From Phycisphaerae bacterium (lineage in GTDB: Bacteria; Planctomycetota; Phycisphaerae; UBA1845), in the NCBI GenBank assembly GCA_024102815.1, contig JAGFJJ010000031.1, forward strand, positions 169,273-233,272: a DNA stretch of 64,000 nucleotides, in the 5' to 3' direction. Position numbers and translations under genes: made by a program. A model generated the notes under the pieces. It was not told the DNA's origin. It saw nothing but the letters and a program-made list of their open reading frames with translations, and ran no database searches. Positions 50,091 through 64,000 of the stretch are shown here, one piece after another (within the stretch, counting starts at the first letter, position 1; each line of letters starts with the position of its first letter).

Positions 50091-50417
50091 ATGGTGAGAA
50101 AAGGCGCATCCTTGCACATTGAATTGCCGGGGGCGGAGATTGCCTCATTCTGTCGGCGTTGGGGAATCGTCCGCCTCGAAGTATTCGGTTCCGCTCTTCG
50201 TGACGATTTCGGCCCCGAAAGCGACGTCGATTTTCTCGTGACATTCGAAGACTCGGCCAGATTCAGTCTGTTCGATCTGGCCGACGCCCAGCAGGAATTG
50301 GAGGGAATTGTAGGCCGATCCGTGGATCTTGTGGAACGGCGCCCGATTGAACAAAGTGCGAACTGGATCCGGCGAGGGTTGATACTAGGGAATACGCTTC
50401 CGGTTTATGTCCGTTGA
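50091..50417 (+). CDS. MntA-type nucleotidyltransferase (antitoxin of a HepT/MntA pair)
   Basis: 108 residues. The minimal nucleotidyltransferase signature GSALRDDFGPESDVDFLV has the GS and the two active-site aspartates. MntA enzymes adenylylate the HepT toxin and neutralise it. It overlaps the next gene by 11 nt, the usual arrangement. The pair sits between rocD and the carbamoyltransferase gene. Confidence 0.87.
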   Translation: MVRKGASLHIELPGAEIASFCRRWGIVRLEVFGSALRDDFGPESDVDFLVTFEDSARFSLFDLADAQQELEGIVGRSVDLVERRPIEQSANWIRRGLILGNTLPVYVR

Positions 50418-50748
50418 TCTGGCATCCTTGGTAGATATTCGCGAGGCGATCCGCCGGGCCACCGGTTTCGTCGAGGGGCTGGACCACGCTCGATTTCTGG
50501 AGGACGAGCGCACCAGGTGGGCCGTGTTCAGTCAGATCGTGATCATTGGGGAAGCTGCGAATCGGGTCTCCCGTTCGTTCCAGGAGCGAACGCCTGAGTT
50601 GCCGTGGCGAGAGATGATCTCCATGCGTCATCGGCTTGTACATGGCTACGACGAAGTCAATTGGGATCGAGTTTGGGCGACGCTGGAAAGTGATTTGCCC
50701 ATGTTGGCAACAGCGATCGCCCCCTTCATCCCGTCGGAACCGGAATGA
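50407..50748 (+). CDS. HEPN-domain HepT-like toxin (ribonuclease)
   Basis: 113 residues. The HEPN catalytic motif RxxxxHxY is present as RHRLVHGY at about 74-81, in a small all-helical protein. HepT toxins cleave RNA, and MntA disables them by AMP transfer to the tyrosine of this motif. It overlaps the antitoxin gene by 11 nt. GC and codon use look like those of the neighbours, so recent acquisition is not obvious. Confidence 0.87.
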   Translation: MSVDLASLVDIREAIRRATGFVEGLDHARFLEDERTRWAVFSQIVIIGEAANRVSRSFQERTPELPWREMISMRHRLVHGYDEVNWDRVWATLESDLPMLATAIAPFIPSEPE

Positions 50749-53085: not shown

Positions 53086-53352
53086 ACCGCGTTGTCAAGT
53101 GACTTGGGGGGAATCCCTGGCACCGCGATTGCTGAACTTCCGGGCGAAGCACGTTGTCCGGGCGGAGAGCGGTGTCATCGGGCTGATGTAAACCGGCGAG
53201 CTTGGCACGGGGGTAGATCGGGACCTCGCAATCTGAGCCTTCGCGACCGATGAAATCGGGCGGACGACCTCGCAGTATTATCGGCCGTCGCCCGGTTCTC
53301 GAGCCTTTCTTTGAGGCAGCCTCCGCCGGTCGGAATCGGGGTCTGGGGGAAC

Positions 53353-56085
53353 ATGATGAGCAGGGACTGGAAGAGGGGCGACTGGCGCTGGGCGGCCGCG
53401 TGCAGCGCGTTCGTCGTTGTCGCGGCTTACCTCGTCTTGCTCGCCCAACGGGCGCCCGCTCCCGTTCGCGCCGACGCCCCGGACCGCGAGGTCTGCCTGA
53501 CTGTACTGGGCGGCACGCTTTCCTTGAAGCTCGACCTTCCCGCCTCCGACCTTTTCGGGGGACCGCTCCTGGCGCAAGGCCACCGATCGGATGAAGATAC
53601 CCGCTGGGTCGAGCGGGAAATGGGCTTTGATGTCCACGTTTCGACATTGACGCTGTCCGAAGGTCCGGGTTTCGATCGAATTCTGGGCGGGCGGCTGAAT
53701 ACCGGGGGCGCGATCATCCTCAGCCAGGGGGAGCCGCGTACCGTCTTCGGCAATCTGTCGCTGGAACCGGATGCTTCCGGTCACCTCATCATCCGCAACG
53801 GGCTGGACGACGCAGCAGAGACCACCGCGTTGTTCACCGTCAAGGACGCCCGGTTGGAATTGAATGATCGAGAGGGCCTGTTGCGCGGTGAAGGGAAAAT
53901 CGCGCTGTCCCCGGATTGGGCCGCAGCACAGGGGGTCCGGTATCCAGTCGGGCGCACGATCGGTGCGGTTTCGTTCGAGGTCGCCGTTGAAGGACTTGCG
54001 AACGACGAATCGGCGCCGAACGTCCGACGTGAAACGCGCGCTCCGAAGGGCACGAGGGGTGACCAAGTGCATCGCGAGGGCGCTGCCGGTTTGCCGGATT
54101 CGAATCCCAAGGCGGATGCTCCGGACTGGGTGGTGGGATATTCCGAGGTCCCCTCGGCCAATGCCTGCGACGAAGAAACGGCGTCGTCGCGTTCCCCGCT
54201 GGCGGGCGACATCGGTCCGGACGTGATCGTCGCCGATCTGCACGCCGTCGGCTATTACGGACATGTGGGTGGCATCACGGCGTATGCGATCGGAACCTAT
54301 GCCTGCAATCTCGGAGACGAGCGGGCAAGCTGGAACGCGATCACTTCCGAGCATCCCGCGATTATTCAGAACATGTACCGTCTGAAGGACAACGAGTTCT
54401 CTCAGATCGGCATGGCCTGGATCAAACACGGATTTTACGCGGTGTCGTACAGCCTGTGTGGTCCGTGCATGGACGAGGTGCCGGACGGGCAGCAACTGGG
54501 CGTAGGGTGTGCCGATCCCTACAGTGCCAACCTCAACTCGATTCAGTCCAACATGAGCCCGCGAGCGCAGGTCAACGGATACACGGGCGTTTTTCCGTTC
54601 CCGCCCACGGCGCCGCCCTTTGACGATGACGTGGATCGCCGGCTTCAGGTACATGATGCCGATGTCGATCCGGTGCTGAACGCCGGGGCGCGGTACTTCA
54701 TTGAGGGTCATTACGTGATGGCCGATGACGCCGCGGCGGGAAACAGCGAGAACAACGCCTCCTATCGCGAGATTCACATCGCCGAGGATCCGCGTGTGCC
54801 GGACCGATTCCTCATGGTTCTTGACGCGGGTCTGCAAACCATGCGCGAGCAGCCCGCCGTGCGAGCCTGGAAGGATGTCGATCCGAGCGTCGTGGAAACG
54901 GATTTCCACGTGCCGGGCGAGGGGCTGTTCATCCTCGCGGGTAAGGCGATTGATCTGGGGACCGGCGTATGGCGCTATCGCTACACTCTCCAGAACCTGA
55001 ACTCCGACCGTGCCGCAAAGGCGTTCTCGATTCCCATTCCTGACGGCGCCGTGGTTTCGAACATCGGGTTTCGGGACGTCGAGTACCACAGTGGCGAGCC
55101 GCAATCCAACGCAGACTGGACTCATTCCGTTGCCGGGGGCTACGTCACCTGGACGACGGAAGATTACTCCGTCAACCAGAACGCGAATGCTCTGCGCTTC
55201 TCCACGTCGTACAGTTTCTCGTTTGATGCCAACGTGGAGCCGGCGACGACAAACGCCGTGATCGACCTGTTCAAACCCGGGCTGCCGGCCAATGTGTCCG
55301 ACGTGACCATCGGGCCGAAGCTCGCATTCATCGACTGCAACCAGAACGGCGTTGCCGATGAATGCGACGTGGATTGCGGCGCCCCGGACTGCACGGAGCC
55401 CTGCGGAGGAAGCACGGACTGCAACGCAAACGGTGTTCCCGACGAGTGCGAGCCGGACTGCAACGAAAACGGGATCGCCGACCAGTGCGACATTCTCAAC
55501 TGTCCGATGGGCGATCTGAGTTGCGCCGACTGCAACAACAACGTCGTGCCCGACGAATGCGAGCCGGACTGCGATGAGGACGGCATTCCGGACGCTTGCG
55601 ACACCTTCGATGATACGGACGAGGACGGCGTTCCGGACTGCTTCGACTTGTGTCCGCTGAACACACCGGCCCGGACGTGTTCCTGTCCGCTGGTTCAGCG
55701 CTGCTACTTCCCGAGCCTGGGTGCGTGCCTTACGCAGGAGTTCTCTGTCGAAGCTTGTCTGGCCGCGCAGGGCATACCCCCGTGCATCCAGCGGCCCTGT
55801 CGGCAGGGTTGTCTTCTGGGCGATTTTGAGGTCGACGGGGACGTGGATCTTGCGGACATCGCTGTTTTCCAGCGGGCGTTCACGGGGCCGGGCGGTTTCA
55901 ATGTTCAGGATTTCACCATCGTCTTCGATGCAAACGAGGACGACGATATCGATCTGGAAGATTTTGAAACGGTGTTTTTCAAGAGTGTACAGATCACGTG
56001 TCCAACCCCGCCTATTCCGGGTTGTGACGTGAGCTGGATCACCGGGCCGTGGGAGAGCGGGCCGGTGCCGTCCTTGTGTCCATAA
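53353..56085 (+). CDS. large exported protein with thrombospondin-type repeats and C-terminal dockerin-like domain
   Basis: About 910 residues from the ATG at 53353 behind GGGGGA. An N-terminal anchor (WAAACSAFVVVAAYLVLLA) exports the protein. A beta-rich region with cysteines (YSLCGPCMDEVPDG) follows to about residue 660. Residues 660-770 have calcium-binding thrombospondin type-3 repeats (CNQNGVADEC, CNANGVPDEC, CNENGIADQC, CDEDGIPDAC). The end has paired EF-hand-like dockerin loops (GDFEVDGDVDLADIAVFQRAF then DANEDDDIDLEDFETVF). It is the first gene of an operon with two octaheme cytochromes and may dock them. The globular family is unknown to me. Confidence 0.82.
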   Translation: MMSRDWKRGDWRWAAACSAFVVVAAYLVLLAQRAPAPVRADAPDREVCLTVLGGTLSLKLDLPASDLFGGPLLAQGHRSDEDTRWVEREMGFDVHVSTLTLSEGPGFDRILGGRLNTGGAIILSQGEPRTVFGNLSLEPDASGHLIIRNGLDDAAETTALFTVKDARLELNDREGLLRGEGKIALSPDWAAAQGVRYPVGRTIGAVSFEVAVEGLANDESAPNVRRETRAPKGTRGDQVHREGAAGLPDSNPKADAPDWVVGYSEVPSANACDEETASSRSPLAGDIGPDVIVADLHAVGYYGHVGGITAYAIGTYACNLGDERASWNAITSEHPAIIQNMYRLKDNEFSQIGMAWIKHGFYAVSYSLCGPCMDEVPDGQQLGVGCADPYSANLNSIQSNMSPRAQVNGYTGVFPFPPTAPPFDDDVDRRLQVHDADVDPVLNAGARYFIEGHYVMADDAAAGNSENNASYREIHIAEDPRVPDRFLMVLDAGLQTMREQPAVRAWKDVDPSVVETDFHVPGEGLFILAGKAIDLGTGVWRYRYTLQNLNSDRAAKAFSIPIPDGAVVSNIGFRDVEYHSGEPQSNADWTHSVAGGYVTWTTEDYSVNQNANALRFSTSYSFSFDANVEPATTNAVIDLFKPGLPANVSDVTIGPKLAFIDCNQNGVADECDVDCGAPDCTEPCGGSTDCNANGVPDECEPDCNENGIADQCDILNCPMGDLSCADCNNNVVPDECEPDCDEDGIPDACDTFDDTDEDGVPDCFDLCPLNTPARTCSCPLVQRCYFPSLGACLTQEFSVEACLAAQGIPPCIQRPCRQGCLLGDFEVDGDVDLADIAVFQRAFTGPGGFNVQDFTIVFDANEDDDIDLEDFETVFFKSVQITCPTPPIPGCDVSWITGPWESGPVPSLCP

Positions 56086-56163
56086 ACGGGAGGCGCAATT
56101 CCGTTGCCGAACGGACTTGCCGGGATCGGGTCGCTGGCGAGTCGACATACAGGGGAGAGAGCG

Positions 56164-58434
56164 ATGCGATCCAATGGACCAAAGATCGGTCCCGTATCGG
56201 CCGTGGCGATTGTACTTGCGCTGGCTGCTCTTGCCGTTCCGGCCTTCGCACAGACATCCTGGTCCGATCCGGCGGATGTGGACTTCGACGGCTACATCGG
56301 CCAATGGGATTACCATTTCTTCGAATTCTGCTTCTTCGATTCCGGACCGCAGAATCCAACGGTCTATTCTGACTGTCGCGACGCGTTCGACGCCGATGAC
56401 GACGGCGATCTGGACCTGCGCGATTATTCCGCGATCGAGCAGCGGTTTGGACACCTGCCCATGCCCCTGCGGGACGCGGCCGGGAACATCCTGACCGCCG
56501 GCTCGACCACGCCGTACAACGGTCCGCAGACCTGCGGCGTGTGCCATCCCGTGGCAGACCGCATCAGCAACGGAGCATGGTTCCAGGACGGTCGGACGAA
56601 TACCGCCGGCCAGGTGGACATGGGGGATGACTACGACGGTGACGGGAAGTTCTGGATCAAGAGCGCCGGTCGATACGGCAAATGGGGACAGTCGTTTCAG
56701 TACATGCTCGCTTCGAAGGCCAACGGCCATCCGTCGGACATGGACCAGACGACGTTTGTGTGGGTCCGGGATTGCAGCGGATGTCACCCGGGCGGCGGGC
56801 CCGGCATGTTCGATCGCGACGATGAACTGCTTTACGACGCCTCCACCGGTCAATTCGGTTATGAAAAACTGGGGCTGACGAGCCAGGACGTCGAGCTCGA
56901 TGGCGATTATTCGATTCTCGATTACGCGACGGGTACGGTTCGCCCGGCGCCGTGGGATGTCACGGGGCTCTCGGCGCCCGATTGTCTGCTGTGCCACCGT
57001 AATGACCGCCCGCTGGTCAACGGGGCGGATCAGTCGCACGGGTGGCGGAAGGGCGTATTGAGCAAGGCGGAGAAGCTCGAGGACAGCGGCGGGGCGCCGG
57101 TTCCCGCGTTTGCTGCAGCGGGTACGGCCGGGCAGGGATGGTTCTCCACTCTCGATCTGGGAGCGACGCCGCCCGTGCTGGATATTGACTACGGGCAAGG
57201 AGTCGCCAACGGCAGCCTGCTGGAGGACGGCGACGGATACCTGGCGATCGCCCCAACGTCAGTGACCTTTCCACCCAAGGATCAGGCCTGCTGGGGCTGC
57301 CATCCCTATGGGACGATTTCCGGCACGACCTGGTTTGACGACCGCGACATTCACTACCGGAAGTTCAATCGACTGAATGACGCCGATCCTTCGAACGACA
57401 TTCCGCCGACGGAAAGCCGGGTCTGCACGGTCTGCCACCAGGGGAATCTCGATCACAACATCGGGAAGGGCAACAGCTTCCAGATTCATTTCCGCAACGA
57501 CCTCGACTACCAGAACATGCTGACGTGTCGCAACTGCCACCTGACGACGCTACCGGACGGCATGCCCAACCCGCTGAAGCATCCCGACGCGCCGGACGTT
57601 CCGGGTGAGGCCTTCGTGCATAACGCCGACATGTTCAACATTCTTTCGTGTCAGTTCTGCCATATTCCCTACACGCTGCTGGGATCGGTCGTGTTTCGCG
57701 ATATCTCGATCGCGTCGAGCGCCAGCGCGCCCGGTGCCTATGCGCCCGGAAACACAGGGCTGACCAGCCAGTACTACTCGGCCGATCCGATGGATCCGAC
57801 GAATCCGGACAAGAGCACGTGGTACCCGTCATTCCTGTACAAGACGGACGTCGACGGCCAGCCGCGCTGGTTCCCCACGAGTGTCTGGATCAATATCTAC
57901 TGGGCCGATTGGGATGACGGAGGAACGCCGGGCGATTACTCGGATGATGTCTTTGCACCCATCCCGACGTGGAAGCTCGGACAGATCACCAATTGGGGTC
58001 CGCTGGCCGGTGTAACGAACGACGATGGAATCGGCGGACCCGAGATCAACCGTCCGGAGGAAATGCTCATCTACATGGCGGCGCTGAAGGGCAACGACAG
58101 CAACGGCGAGCCCGTAGCGCTGCGTCCCGTGTTGGTGAAGGGCAAGTGGATCTGGTACGAGGATCCCGGTTCGCCCGATGGCGTGAATGCCATCTATACG
58201 GAGGACGCGGGGGATACCGTGACGTGGTATCCGTATCTGTGGAGCCTGGATCACAACGTTCTGGCCGTCGAGGAATCGCTGGGCTACAACGAGTTCGAGC
58301 CATTTGGCTGCGTTCAGTGCCACCAGGCGCCATCCGGGGTATTTGATCGTGAGATTCTTGTCGATCCGTTCGGCGTTGACGGTCAGCCGGTGTACCAGAC
58401 CGTTCGGCAGATGACCGGTTTGAACCCGCCGTGA
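56164..58434 (+). CDS. exported octaheme c-type cytochrome with N-terminal dockerin-like domain
   Basis: 756 residues. A signal peptide (LALAALAVPAFAQ) is followed by two EF-hand-like loops (DVDFDGYIGQWDY and DADDDGDLDLRDY), a dockerin-like pair, at about 35-95. Eight CxxCH haem sites follow: Cys124, 204, 274, 376, 421, 455, 496 and 716. The spacing between the fourth and seventh is short, with a gap of 220 residues before the last. The ATG at 56164 has GGGGAGAGAG. Multihaem cytochromes move electrons at the periplasm or surface; haem ligation by CcmF or ResBC is needed. A paralogue follows. Confidence 0.88.
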   Translation: MRSNGPKIGPVSAVAIVLALAALAVPAFAQTSWSDPADVDFDGYIGQWDYHFFEFCFFDSGPQNPTVYSDCRDAFDADDDGDLDLRDYSAIEQRFGHLPMPLRDAAGNILTAGSTTPYNGPQTCGVCHPVADRISNGAWFQDGRTNTAGQVDMGDDYDGDGKFWIKSAGRYGKWGQSFQYMLASKANGHPSDMDQTTFVWVRDCSGCHPGGGPGMFDRDDELLYDASTGQFGYEKLGLTSQDVELDGDYSILDYATGTVRPAPWDVTGLSAPDCLLCHRNDRPLVNGADQSHGWRKGVLSKAEKLEDSGGAPVPAFAAAGTAGQGWFSTLDLGATPPVLDIDYGQGVANGSLLEDGDGYLAIAPTSVTFPPKDQACWGCHPYGTISGTTWFDDRDIHYRKFNRLNDADPSNDIPPTESRVCTVCHQGNLDHNIGKGNSFQIHFRNDLDYQNMLTCRNCHLTTLPDGMPNPLKHPDAPDVPGEAFVHNADMFNILSCQFCHIPYTLLGSVVFRDISIASSASAPGAYAPGNTGLTSQYYSADPMDPTNPDKSTWYPSFLYKTDVDGQPRWFPTSVWINIYWADWDDGGTPGDYSDDVFAPIPTWKLGQITNWGPLAGVTNDDGIGGPEINRPEEMLIYMAALKGNDSNGEPVALRPVLVKGKWIWYEDPGSPDGVNAIYTEDAGDTVTWYPYLWSLDHNVLAVEESLGYNEFEPFGCVQCHQAPSGVFDREILVDPFGVDGQPVYQTVRQMTGLNPP

Positions 58435-58585
58435 CGGACATCACCCGGCGGCAAAGGTGTTTTCTGCATCTTGGGGGGGAAGAAACCTCCAAAACAGGGG
58501 AAACAGGGGAAGGCGTACTCAAATCTTCAGGAAGGGCCGGCGGCTCGGGCGCAGGTCCGGGTTGCCAACGAGAGAGGAGCGGGAA

Positions 58586-60769
58586 ATGAATCGTAAGCGA
58601 TTCCTCACCGTCAGTGCACTTGTGCTAACCATGTCATGTGGAGTCGCCGTGTTGGCCGCTGATCCGGCAGACACCGACGACAACGGATATATCGATCTGC
58701 GTGACTACGTCATGCTGGAATCGTGCTACCAGGGTCCGGGGGAGGGCCTGGCATCCGGATGTGCGACGCTCACCGACCGAGACTTAGACGGCGATGCCGA
58801 CCTGGCGGATTTCGCCGGGCTCAGCAATGCGTGGGGGCACCTGGCGATGCCGCTGCGCGGATTCGACGGGAACATTCTCACGCCCGGATCGACCGAGCCC
58901 TACAGCGGCATCAAGACTTGTGGTGAGTGCCACGACATCGATTTCGTCAAAGGCAATCACTATCAGCAGGGCCGGACCGACGCCGACGGAAATGTCGTCA
59001 TGAAGGACGACTACTTCAACGACGGCAGGTACTGGGTTCGAAGTGGAGGACGATACGGCCAGTTTTCTCAGGCGGCGTTGCGCCAGCATTCCGGGAAAAC
59101 GAATCCGGACGAATCTTCGATGGACTTGACGGCTTTCACGTGGATCCGCGATTGCGGTGGATGCCATCCGGGGAGTGGGCCGGGACAGTACGATCGTGAC
59201 GGCGAACTGTACTATGACTCCGCAACAGGCGAGTTCGGTTACGAGAAGCTCGGCATGACCGCAGATGACGTGCGCCTGGACGGGGATTACGCGGAAGTCA
59301 ACGTGGCTACCGGACAGGTTACGCCCGCGCCCTGGGATATCACCGGACTGTCCGAGCCGGACTGCCTGATGTGCCACCGGTCGGGCCTGACGATCGTCAA
59401 CGGCGTGGCCAAGAACCGTGAATGGCGGCAACTGGCCCTGGGAACGGGTGCAGCACTCGTGGACAACGTGGGCAATCCTGTTCCGGCTTTTCAGGCGGCG
59501 GGTCCGGCCGGTCAGGGCTGGTTCAGCACGTTTGAGCCCGCGGCGAACCCACCGAGGCTCCAGATTGACTATACCGTCGGTTTGACCGAGGGAAGCCTCA
59601 TCGATGACGGCTCAGGAGGATTGGCGCTCCCGCCCACGACGGTGAACTATCACCCGACGGATGAGGTCTGCTGGTCATGCCACAAGGATTTCGCCATCAT
59701 TGCGGGAACGATCTGGTTCGACGAACGCGACGTACACTTCCGGGGATTCAACGGACTCAACGACGAGGATCCGACCAACGACATCCCGGATTCGCACAGC
59801 CGGGCGTGCCTCGAGTGTCATCCGGGGTTTGCCAAGGGGAACAGCCCGCAGATTCAAGCGCAGAACGAGCTGGATTTTGTGGACTTCCGAACCTGTCGCG
59901 ATTGTCACCTGGCGACGCTTCCGGGTGGAGCGCCCAATCCGCTCGCCCATCCCGACGCCCCGCACGTTCCCACCGAGGCATTCGACGATATTCACAAATT
60001 CGAGATGTTCGAAACACTGTCCTGCCAGTTGTGCCACATCCCCAGCGCCCTGAGTTACACGCTCATGTTCATTGATCCGGCGGGTGGCGGCCTGGGCTCC
60101 AGTGCACAATACCTATCGGCCGATCCGCTCAACCCGGCCGATCCGGATAAGAGCACGTGGTATCCCGGGTTGATTCAGAAGATGGACTCTGACGGGGTCA
60201 TGCGCTGGTTCCCCGTGAACTACTGGCCCAATATCTATTGGGCGGATTGGAATCGAAACGGCACGCCGGAGCTTGAAGATGACGTGGTTGCCCCGGTCAT
60301 TGCCTGGCGCCTGAAACAGGTGCTTGCCGGCCAGACCCCGGCGTTGACGGACGACAATGGCGACGGCGTTCCGGAATTGAACCGCCCGGCGGAGATTTTC
60401 GCGTACATGCAAGTGCTCAAGGGCAACGACAGCTACGGGCGGCAGGTCGCAGCCAATCCGGTCCTCATCAAAGGAACGCGGATGTGGTTCGAGGATGCCA
60501 TGGCTCCCGACGGAGTCTCCTCGATCGACCTGCGTCTGCTCCCGATCGCTTTGGACTGGTATGCCTACGTCTGGGAGCTGGACCACAACGTCGTTGACCC
60601 GTCGCAGGCCTGGGGAGCAGGCGGCCAGCCGGGATGCGCCCAGTGCCATATCGCACCGGGGCAGTCACCGGTCTTCGACCGGAAGATTCTGGTCGATCCG
60701 TACGGTGCGGACGGACAGCCGGTCTATGAAACCGTGCGACAGATGACCGGCATCAATCCACCGTATTGA
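58586..60769 (+). CDS. exported octaheme c-type cytochrome with N-terminal dockerin-like domain (paralogue)
   Basis: 727 residues from the ATG at 58586 behind GAGAGGAG. A signal peptide (ALVLTMSCGVAVLAA) is followed by dockerin-like loops DTDDNGYIDLRDY and DRDLDGDADLADF. Eight CxxCH sites at Cys112, 190, 260, 362, 408, 437, 480 and 684 match the previous cytochrome one for one, as do long stretches such as GQGWFST, LTEGSLIDDG-like and DREILVDPxGxDGQPVYxTVRQMTG. It arose by tandem duplication. The two may pair or function under different conditions. Spacing to the first gene is 152 nt and includes a GGGGGGAAG element. Confidence 0.88.
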   Translation: MNRKRFLTVSALVLTMSCGVAVLAADPADTDDNGYIDLRDYVMLESCYQGPGEGLASGCATLTDRDLDGDADLADFAGLSNAWGHLAMPLRGFDGNILTPGSTEPYSGIKTCGECHDIDFVKGNHYQQGRTDADGNVVMKDDYFNDGRYWVRSGGRYGQFSQAALRQHSGKTNPDESSMDLTAFTWIRDCGGCHPGSGPGQYDRDGELYYDSATGEFGYEKLGMTADDVRLDGDYAEVNVATGQVTPAPWDITGLSEPDCLMCHRSGLTIVNGVAKNREWRQLALGTGAALVDNVGNPVPAFQAAGPAGQGWFSTFEPAANPPRLQIDYTVGLTEGSLIDDGSGGLALPPTTVNYHPTDEVCWSCHKDFAIIAGTIWFDERDVHFRGFNGLNDEDPTNDIPDSHSRACLECHPGFAKGNSPQIQAQNELDFVDFRTCRDCHLATLPGGAPNPLAHPDAPHVPTEAFDDIHKFEMFETLSCQLCHIPSALSYTLMFIDPAGGGLGSSAQYLSADPLNPADPDKSTWYPGLIQKMDSDGVMRWFPVNYWPNIYWADWNRNGTPELEDDVVAPVIAWRLKQVLAGQTPALTDDNGDGVPELNRPAEIFAYMQVLKGNDSYGRQVAANPVLIKGTRMWFEDAMAPDGVSSIDLRLLPIALDWYAYVWELDHNVVDPSQAWGAGGQPGCAQCHIAPGQSPVFDRKILVDPYGADGQPVYETVRQMTGINPPY

Positions 60770-61101: not shown

Positions 61102-61209
61102 GCAGCCTGTCTCAATTTCGGGCCACGGTGGCCGGCGGTGGAGCGCTGGTCACTCTCGTCAATGTCGCGAATCGATATCGGACGTACCAAGCGGAGGAGG
61201 GTGCTTTCT

Positions 61210-64000
61210 ATGCGCGCAAGGGGTGTCGGATTTGCCGTCGCAGTCGTCTTTGTGTTGACGTTGTTGCCGATCCACAGAGCGCTGGGAGGAAGCGCCCTTG
61301 AATACAAGTGTTCCACGGCCGGAACTCTGTCGGTCTGCGCCGACATGGCCAAGTATCTGCCGGATTCCTGGGCCTATGTTTCCGGCAACGGATACGCACC
61401 GGACTCCGCCTTGACCATTCGAGTCACGCGGCCGGATGGTTCCATGGTATCCGGAGACGGTACCGGAGCCGCCTGGCCGACCGCGTATGACACGGTTGTA
61501 ACCGACGCGGAAGGGCACTTCGACTACTTCTATTTCGTCAATGGTACCGCCGGGACGTACGTGGCGGACGTCATGGATGGCGGCTCCGTCGTTTCGGCTT
61601 GCTCGTTCGCCTGCTTTGCCGGGAGCAAGCCCAAGGTCGACGACGGCGCTTCAACCACGACGACGGTTCTTTCCATGGTGACGCTCGAATGGAACGATCC
61701 CGCCTCGGCGCCGACGCAGATGCGTGTGGCCAACGACGCGACGCCCGAGGACGGATGTTCCGATCTCGGCGGTGGAAGCTACACGGCCTGGCAGCCGGTA
61801 ACCGATTCCAACGGCACCAACAGCATGGACTTCGCGTGGACACTCGACGCGGGACCGGAAGGCCAGCGCTCGGTTTGTGTTGAAGCCGCGAAAGGCGCGC
61901 TGGATGTTCCGATTGACTCGGCCGTGGACGAGGATCAAATCCTCCTGGCGGTCGAGAATCCGCCGTTGGGCGATGCGTGCGGTCTGGACGTCGTGCTTGT
62001 CATCGACGTTTCTGGCAGCGTCAACTCTACGCAGCTCGCTCAGTCGAAAGCGGCATTCGTTGGATTCGTCAACGCGCTGCTCCCCAGCACGCCAACGCAA
62101 TTTGCCGTGGTCGAGTTCTCCACAACAGCGAACGTGCTTCTGGGATTCTCCTCATCGCCTGCCACCGTCATCGCCGCGATCAATTCCGCCGGTGGAGGTG
62201 GCTCCACCAACTGGGATGATGCCCTGTATGACGCGCGCCTTCTGTTTCCGAACCGCCTGGATAAGCCGGACCTCATCATCTTCTCTTCCGATGGCAATCC
62301 CAATTACCGCGGGGGCCACGCCAGTCACGGTAGTCCAACGAGCGTGTCCCCGGCCACGGCGCTGTCCTTTGCGGTCACCGAAGCGGACGCAGCGAAGACA
62401 GCCGGCATTCGGATTATCGCCCTCGGCATTGGTTCCGGCGTGAACATCGCTAATCTCCAGGCCATTTCAAGTCCCGACGCGGTAATCACCTCCGGCTTCG
62501 ACACGCTTGCTGACGATCTGGCGGATCTTGCCATCCAAATATGCGGCGGCACGATCACGGTAAACAAGCTCATCGACGCCGACGGCAATCTCGCCACGAC
62601 CGGCGACCAGACCCCCGCCATGGGGTGGACCTTCTCGACCAATGTGGACGCGCCGGACTTCTCGACGCCTGCCTCGGGCATGACCGATGGCAGCGGCCAG
62701 ATCAACTTCGATATTGATCTGGGCGACGATCTCTCGGCAGTTGTCGATGTGATCGAGACACCGCAGGCGGGTTATGCCTTGCTCTCCGCAAGCTGTACGG
62801 TAAGCGGTACGCCTTCCGGGCTGGCGGTGAACGACATCACGGTGAGCCCTCTCGACGTCATCACGTGCACCTTCATCAATGCGGCTTTGTGCGGAAACGG
62901 CACGGTGGACGTCGGTGAGGATTGCGATGACGGCAATACCGTGGACGGCGATTGCTGCTCATCTACGTGCACCTTCGAAATCGCCGGGACGGCATGTGGC
63001 AACCAGACGCCGGAAGGTGCCTGCGATCTTGCTGATGTCTGCGATGGCGCCGGCATGTGCGTATCCAACCGCGTTCCGTCGGGCACCGAGTGCCGGGCGG
63101 CCGCCGGTGACTGCGACGTGCCTGAGTTCTGTGACGGCGTAGCGGCCGATTGTCCATCGGATGCCCTGGAGCCCAACACAACGGAGTGCCGCGCCTCGGC
63201 GGGCGTTTGTGACCCGGCGGAGTTCTGCACGGGGAGCAGCGCCGATTGCCCGGCGGACGTCCTCGAGCCGGGATCCACGGAATGCCGCGCGTCTGCCGGC
63301 GAATGCGATCAGGCCGAATTCTGCACAGGAAGCAGTGCCGATTGTCCGGCAGACGGTTTTGAGCCCAATACGACCGAGTGCCGGGCTTCCGCGGGTGTTT
63401 GCGATTCGGCTGAGTTCTGCACCGGCACCAGTGCAAGCTGCCCCTCCGACGTGTTCGAGCCGGACACGATCGAGTGCCGTTCATCGACGGGCGTTTGCGA
63501 TCCGGCCGAGTTTTGTACGGGGAGCAGCGCCGATTGCCCGGCGGATGTGCTTGAGCCCGGAACAACTGAATGTCGAGCTTCGGCCGGTGATTGCGATCCG
63601 GCGGAGTTCTGTACGGGAAGCAGTGCTGACTGCCCAGCCGACGTGCTCGAACCTGGCACAACCGAGTGCCGAGCTTCTGCCGGCGCCTGTGACCCGCCGG
63701 AGTTCTGCACGGGAAGCAGTGCCGATTGTCCTGCAGATGTCTTCGAACCCGGTTCAACGGAGTGTCGGCCTGCTGCGGGGGTTTGCGACGTAGCGGAATT
63801 CTGCACGGGGTCTGACGCCGACTGCCCGGCTGACGCGTTCTTACCTGACACCACGGAGTGCAATGCTTCCACGGGCGACTGCGATCCGGCGGAGTATTGC
63901 ACGGGATCGTCGGCCGATTGTCCGGCGGACGAGATCGCTCCCTTCGGAACGGTCTGCCGCGTGGTGGCCGGTCCCTGCGACATCGAGGAGCTCTGCGACG
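61210..64000 (+). CDS. giant exported von Willebrand factor A protein with disintegrin-like cysteine-rich repeats (3' end beyond window)
   Basis: At least 930 residues; the reading frame is open to the window end. The ATG at 61210 follows GGAGGAGGG. A signal peptide (VGFAVAVVFVLTLLPIHRA) is followed by a beta-rich region, then a vWA domain at about 260-430 with the MIDAS core DVSGS (Asp266). A CGNGTVDVGEDCDDGN Myxococcus-type cysteine repeat starts at Cys561. From Cys628 there are ten 32-residue units of the type CRASAGxCDPAEFCTGSSADCP with spacing exactly 96 nt. These repeat units resemble the disintegrin cysteine pattern of ADAM proteins. It is probably a surface adhesin; the C-terminal anchor is outside the window. 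Confidence 0.85.
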   Translation, partial: MRARGVGFAVAVVFVLTLLPIHRALGGSALEYKCSTAGTLSVCADMAKYLPDSWAYVSGNGYAPDSALTIRVTRPDGSMVSGDGTGAAWPTAYDTVVTDAEGHFDYFYFVNGTAGTYVADVMDGGSVVSACSFACFAGSKPKVDDGASTTTTVLSMVTLEWNDPASAPTQMRVANDATPEDGCSDLGGGSYTAWQPVTDSNGTNSMDFAWTLDAGPEGQRSVCVEAAKGALDVPIDSAVDEDQILLAVENPPLGDACGLDVVLVIDVSGSVNSTQLAQSKAAFVGFVNALLPSTPTQFAVVEFSTTANVLLGFSSSPATVIAAINSAGGGGSTNWDDALYDARLLFPNRLDKPDLIIFSSDGNPNYRGGHASHGSPTSVSPATALSFAVTEADAAKTAGIRIIALGIGSGVNIANLQAISSPDAVITSGFDTLADDLADLAIQICGGTITVNKLIDADGNLATTGDQTPAMGWTFSTNVDAPDFSTPASGMTDGSGQINFDIDLGDDLSAVVDVIETPQAGYALLSASCTVSGTPSGLAVNDITVSPLDVITCTFINAALCGNGTVDVGEDCDDGNTVDGDCCSSTCTFEIAGTACGNQTPEGACDLADVCDGAGMCVSNRVPSGTECRAAAGDCDVPEFCDGVAADCPSDALEPNTTECRASAGVCDPAEFCTGSSADCPADVLEPGSTECRASAGECDQAEFCTGSSADCPADGFEPNTTECRASAGVCDSAEFCTGTSASCPSDVFEPDTIECRSSTGVCDPAEFCTGSSADCPADVLEPGTTECRASAGDCDPAEFCTGSSADCPADVLEPGTTECRASAGACDPPEFCTGSSADCPADVFEPGSTECRPAAGVCDVAEFCTGSDADCPADAFLPDTTECNASTGDCDPAEYCTGSSADCPADEIAPFGTVCRVVAGPCDIEELCD
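63085..64000 (+). repeat. tandem 96-nt repeat encoding disintegrin-like units
   Basis: Ten units begin at TGC codons 63091, 63187, 63283, 63379, 63475, 63571, 63667, 63763, 63859 and 63955, all exactly 96 nt apart, with no insertion or deletion. Each codes for C-x6-C-x5-C-x6-C spacing (cysteines at unit positions 1, 8, 14 and 21). The array continues past the window edge. The units differ by mostly synonymous substitutions, which indicates selection on the protein. Confidence 0.92.

Follow-up and report, generated by a model that had tools for sequence, protein, structure and literature searches.

At positions 53353 to 60769 of a 64,000-nucleotide stretch of contig JAGFJJ010000031.1 from a Phycisphaerae bacterium (hereafter the window, whose end is the end of contig C31), three long open reading frames (ORFs), p1, c2 and c3, follow one another on the same strand at the coordinates of the initial annotation. 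Start codons were refined by eye via Shine-Dalgarno-like sequences (ATG at 53353, 56164 and 58586 for p1, c2 and c3, respectively), and export of the three products was likewise called by eye from their N-terminal signal-like sequences. The main features were as follows:

53353..56085, + strand: p1, predicted exported protein of 910 amino acids, carrying DCNxNGVPDEC-like repeats plus an EF-hand/dockerin-like pair towards the C-terminus
55819..55974, + strand: dockerin-like pair of p1, residues 823-874 (Dockerin_1 15.9 bits, E 0.015, cut-off 22.9)
56164..58434, + strand: c2, predicted exported octahaem c-type cytochrome of 756 amino acids
56254..56466, + strand: N-terminal dockerin-like EF-hand module of c2, model residues 32-102
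58586..60769, + strand: c3, predicted exported octahaem c-type cytochrome of 727 amino acids, with 8 CxxCH motifs and 50.7% identity to c2 over 758 columns
58661..58840, + strand: N-terminal EF-hand pair of c3, DTDDNGYIDLRD ... DRDLDGDADLAD, which aligns with the c2 module

The description of three exported EF-hand-bearing proteins in a row was borne out, with three co-directional ORFs and with EF-hand-like loops in the N-terminal regions of both cytochromes and at the C-terminus of p1. The genes are separated by 78 and 151 bases and all three showed coding-type GC content by codon position; the same pattern was mirrored in a 1306-amino-acid antisense ORF (53278-57198), which we took to be a shadow of the coding strand. 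Promoter and terminator scans stayed below the shuffled expectation and were uninformative with respect to an operon.

Both cytochromes carry eight CxxCH haem-binding motifs, whereas 5000 residue shuffles of c2 and c3 averaged 0.010 and 0.013, with maxima of 1 and 2, respectively. The initial annotation had placed these motifs in identical order and spacing: their number and order held, and the spacing was similar rather than identical (80/70/102/45/34/41/220 in c2 and 78/70/102/46/29/43/204 in c3). A third paralogue, c34, is encoded on contig C34 (L006) of the same genome, and a fourth, weak match on C76 (24.4 bits) covered the EF-hand part only; a scan of the genome contigs with c2 gave one locus with six matched stretches. 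Wherever source names were given for close homologues, these were planctomycetes.

The predicted folds of c2 and c3 matched that of octahaem tetrathionate reductase (OTR; 1sp3, Shewanella; families TIGR04315 and PF11783). In contrast, c2 scored 18.8 bits on TIGR04315, far under the cut-off of 375 bits, with c3 not listed at E≤1 and the search of the window's genome (G000) reaching 19.2 bits, and PF11783 matched neither protein at E up to 1. The two also differ from OTR in their EF-hand-like module and in their length, the 1sp3 chain having 443 amino acids. The register of the eight CxxCH motifs is that of OTR, as traced through the selenocysteine (Sec) or cysteine-bearing relatives described below, which gave global hhalign alignments to OTR and which align with c2 and c3. 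A direct sequence link from c2, c3 or their profiles to 1sp3 was absent from the search matches, including the 60 of 231 that were listed; among these 60, the EF-hand pair drew a double-dockerin module, calmodulin and troponin. Octahaem Hao/ONR-like proteins found with a Hao model are reported from Phycisphaerae in sections of PMC11266412, and these share haem number and class with c2 and c3; however, no Hao-type family in Pfam or NCBIfam matched c2 or c3.

Matches to the cytochromes were present in 5 of 198 genomes of the class, 11 of 51 of the family and 10 of 392 of the phylum, with the window's genome counted each time. Outside the family, all seven long matches (at least 616 of 658 profile positions; six genomes) contained one in-frame TGA each, at the same column and in the constant context GMYGKW-TGA-PP (L027-L031, L055 and L056; genomes G411, G386, G343, G304, G512 and G442). 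The three other outside matches were short and had no TGA, and c2, c3 and c34 contain zero in-frame TGA codons. By eye, the seven carry a lipobox-like signal, making them predicted lipoproteins, and no EF-hand module. A 6-bp hairpin with the loop AGUU begins 16 bases downstream of the TGA, with 97.6% of cells pairing and one outer pair switching from GC to CG in two of the seven; since 23 of 500 shuffles reached such values, we regard this hairpin (single-sequence z-scores of -0.37 to -2.90) as supportive, not decisive. Among eight loci searched with Rfam, no family of selenocysteine insertion sequence (SECIS) elements was found, the single match lying below its gathering score. SelB exceeded its cut-off in 14 of 15 tested genomes, the window's included, versus 2 of 14 controls; this held for three of the four Sec genomes tested, with G411 (88% complete, two of the seven Sec genes) below. 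Because three of ten neighbouring genes in the Sec loci end in TGA, wholesale reassignment of this codon is unlikely, and judging from these sequences the in-frame TGA of this sister clade likely encodes Sec.

Two more distant octahaem proteins (L057 in G542 and L058 in G488; E 2.3e-58 to the Sec group) have Cys at the Sec column; L058 had no match in the PDB. The C-terminal segment of both looked membrane-spanning by eye. Furthermore, an OTR-family gene above the TIGR04315 cut-off (L064, G200:C405) carries one in-frame TGA just before haem 2, at a position occupied by Cys in L063, L065 and 1sp3. Sec in OTR-type octahaem cytochromes, as in L064, is already listed according to parts of PMC13188914 (TIGR04315, WP_331457571.1, GenBank annotation). 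The Sec relatives described here differ from these in scoring at most 32.1 of the 375 bits on TIGR04315 and in the position of the TGA, which lies 31 codons before haem 2 in L029 compared with 10 in L064. A search of the open-licence literature gave no description of this Sec group or of the c2/c3 family. Ten proteins scanned from five Sec loci had no common theme; clustering of these five loci (L090 and L091 lay outside it) yielded one gene pair common to L045 and L048 (cluster 26), and clusters 8-10, one of them of pyruvate:ferredoxin oxidoreductase type, joined genes of L045 to genes of two loci from the window's family.

A Porin_O_P gene adjoins one Sec relative (L049), and c3 scored 34.2 bits on PF22113 (MtrC/MtrF domain II/IV), above the cut-off of 30, with c2 below it at 24.2. 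Together with the OTR-related multihaem electron conduit MmcA of Methanosarcina, which in the relevant portions of PMC11024163 reduces soluble Fe(III) and anthraquinone-2,6-disulfonate (AQDS), these matches would fit a role for c2 and c3 like that of MtrC/OmcA, as terminal reductases that act on metals or humics at the outer surface. We consider this unlikely, given that the OmcA/MtrC decahaem model TIGR03507 gave 10.1 bits on c3 against a cut-off of 209.3, did not list c2, and describes proteins with ten haems, not eight. MmcA also differs from c2 and c3 in having seven haems, in being archaeal and in being encoded with Rnf genes.

Two further codons of c2 lie at columns used to compare the family with the Sec clade and with OTR:

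56686..56688, + strand: Gly of GRYGKWGQ, at or near the TGA column of the sister clade
57316..57318, + strand: Ile at the position of the conserved KRG lysine, which aligns with OTR Lys153

In OTR, we take Lys153 to be a ligand of haem 2 and Cys64 to be an active-site residue (both residues were located by computation on the printed 1sp3 sequence). In the Sec/Cys relatives, the residue aligned with Lys153 is the second lysine of KKRG, and the KRG column reads TISG in c2, IIAG in c3 and VLRG in c34, the lysine being absent in all three. In a family alignment of 143 proteins (of 133 proteins, 131 were used and two long fusion proteins excluded), the lysine was present in all 9 proteins whose Sec column has TGA or Cys, but missing in 95 of the other 134, c2, c3 and c34 among them; at the Sec column, 31 of these 134 have Ser and 103 a gap. 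The Gly of c2 aligned with the TGA column in some alignments and faced a gap in others, as the column depends on gap placement, and c2 has neither Cys nor TGA there whichever placement is taken. No Cys lies between haems 1 and 2 in c2 or c3. In a tree of 78 rows, including 66 of the 131 family proteins, the seven Sec rows formed one group (support 100) joined by one non-Sec row (support 98), and all rows that keep the lysine, apart from P0106 close to the base, fell on the side of this Sec group. c2, c3 and c34 were placed opposite the Sec side (support 89), with c2 and c3 in separate subgroups, so that the tandem pair does not reflect a recent duplication.

The N-terminal module of c2 was predicted to adopt a dockerin fold, matching the type II dockerin of Bacteroides cellulosolvens (2y3n_B), yet neither c2 nor c3 matched Pfam Dockerin_1 at E≤1, and p1 also fell short of the cut-off in the genome search (22.0 bits). 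The dockerin identity assigned initially was therefore upheld by predicted fold for c2 and failed by the Pfam cut-off in all three proteins. The thrombospondin type 3 repeats claimed for p1 lacked Pfam support, with no TSP_3 match at E up to 1: its DCNxNGVPDEC-like repeats were visible only by eye, the written pattern giving zero matches and no family match. Homologues of p1 (39-46% identity over most of the length) were found on four cytochrome-bearing contigs, plus one partial. A tblastn survey covered 14 contigs of the family that carry the cytochrome; as several are short, missing neighbours mean little. A p1 homologue lay within 1 kb of the cytochrome on six of the 14, the window included. 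This adjacency, the dockerin-like fold in c2 and five cohesin matches in the window's genome, one over the cut-off (control genomes: 2 of 14 with a match, 1 over the cut-off), are in line with the initial proposal that p1, c2 and c3 form a calcium-dependent electron-transfer complex, joined through dockerin-cohesin pairing on the surface. We nevertheless regard such a complex as highly improbable: no Pfam cohesin domain matched p1, c2 or c3, c2 and c3 fail Dockerin_1, and 16 dockerin matches are scattered across the genome. Moreover, the p1 type is not itself a dedicated partner, since such proteins occur in 45 of the 51 genomes of the family and the cytochromes in only 11. Passages of PMC5244752 and PMC9012536 suggest a role in multihaem cytochrome adhesion for dockerin/cohesin proteins of anaerobic methanotrophic (ANME) archaea; the idea of dockerin-type modules serving electron-transfer surfaces is shared, though hypothetical and separate from the c2/c3 family, in which, unlike in the ANME proteins, the module sits on the cytochrome itself.

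On four of the 14 surveyed contigs (G181 C60, G225 C55, G219 C375 and G230 C173), hydrazine-synthase-like genes, namely hzsA-like, fused hzsBC-like and binding-protein genes, lay within 10 kb of the cytochrome, and a NapH-like gene (Fer4 and TPR) was present on three. The clusters L035, L037, L039 and L040 contain these hzs-like and binding-protein genes with an octahaem cytochrome. Their identification relied on PF18582 (E 7.7e-21, over the cut-off) and on matches to solved hydrazine synthase subunits, with the NCBIfam hydrazine synthase models scoring far too low to pass (65.8 bits against a cut-off of 800, and 197.9 against 1250). Of the 11 genomes with the cytochrome, 9 had PF18582 above its cut-off, versus 13 of the 40 genomes without a cytochrome, and the window's genome has its own run of hzsA-like, hzsBC-like and binding-protein genes on C72 (L089; identities of 38%, 54% and 30%). 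Clusters of this kind in Phycisphaerae and other Planctomycetota are described in parts of PMC10732223 and PMC12758564, the latter arguing that the homologues lack residues important for hydrazine synthesis; an adjoining EF-hand octahaem cytochrome, p1 or NapH-like gene is not mentioned in those parts. NapH-like and DUF362 genes occur in some of the four clusters, and in L037 the hzsBC-like protein has a cytochrome c554 domain and the DUF362 gene a dockerin. L033 (G181:C27) and L044 (G224:C40) each fuse two octahaem units in a single frame of about 1490 amino acids; counting CX2-4CH as a haem motif gives 16 motifs, and the second unit lacks the EF-hand part in the tblastn match.

We favour, with about even confidence, the reading that c2 and c3, which combine a predicted OTR-like fold with an N-terminal EF-hand-like module, form an extracytoplasmic electron-relay pair rather than a reductase. 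Fold, motifs, residue states and neighbourhoods were computed; location, partners, haem ligation and function are what we infer. The OTR scaffold would be retained, but because both the lysine and the thiol or selenol are absent, the substrate site at haem 2 has probably been lost, and haem 2 would serve as an extra relay haem. The pair would shuttle electrons between a donor on the quinol side, represented in some relatives by NapH-like proteins, and an exported redox enzyme; for some relatives, this enzyme is probably the hydrazine-synthase-like complex encoded next to the cytochrome. The EF-hand-like module may bind calcium and either stabilise the cytochrome or attach it to an exported partner, possibly p1. 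The initial interpretation was thus supported in part.

Several observations weigh against the relay pair. The OTR match came from a second look with VIA-align, Foldseek itself having found no match to the PDB or to viral models at E up to 0.001, and the alignments that place the OTR lysine column are weak outside haems 4-7. The loss of catalysis is not uniform, as 39 of the 134 non-Sec/Cys proteins keep the lysine and in nine of the 134 a Cys precedes the Sec column by one position. In the global alignment, OTR Cys64 falls opposite a residue 19 positions downstream of the Sec site, so the equivalence of the two sites is uncertain. As for the window's genome, its hzs-like genes lie on a different contig from its cytochromes. 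Lastly, beyond the motif histidines, only five His columns were conserved above 85% (c2 98, 432, 474, 487 and 698, numbered from 56161; 139 rows), and with so few, bis-His ligation is not required at every haem and a substrate site could lie elsewhere. This scarcity of non-motif histidines, the OTR-like fold itself, the many invariant non-motif residues across the family and the hydrazine-synthase-like genes near relatives would also suit enzymes that actively reduce or oxidise a small nitrogen or sulfur compound, with an active site arranged unlike that of OTR, which reportedly reduces nitrite and hydroxylamine (Atkinson 2007, title). We judge active enzymes possible though clearly less probable than the relay, as the Lys153-aligned lysine and the Sec/Cys residue of the relatives are both missing and c2 is far below the TIGR04315 cut-off.

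A bolder extension of the relay reading, which we offer tentatively and think rather doubtful, is that hydrazine-synthase-like enzymes outside anammox bacteria have the OTR-fold octahaem pair as their dedicated redox partner. Electrons from quinol would pass through the NapH-like membrane protein and the EF-hand pair to the HzsA/HzsBC-like complex, a nitrogen-redox module assembled in Phycisphaerae, and the Sec sister clade would be a still-catalytic haem-selenolate reductase.

Elsewhere in the window, a nucleotidyltransferase and a HepT-like protein (50091-50748) probably form an MNT/HEPN toxin-antitoxin pair, flanked by a class-III aminotransferase gene and an ornithine/aspartate carbamoyltransferase gene. 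Positions 61138-64000 encode a VWA-domain protein with about ten cysteine-rich repeats matching Pfam Disintegrin, which is cut by the contig end.

The family unites in one lineage an OTR-like fold, a dockerin-like calcium-type module and, in its sister clade, a likely Sec. Because of this combination, its natural variants (TGA with Lys; Ser or a gap with Lys; neither) could be used to test enzyme versus wire in octahaem cytochromes. The recurrent adjacency to hzs-like genes, in turn, offers a concrete candidate partner for hydrazine-synthase-like genes whose function is disputed.
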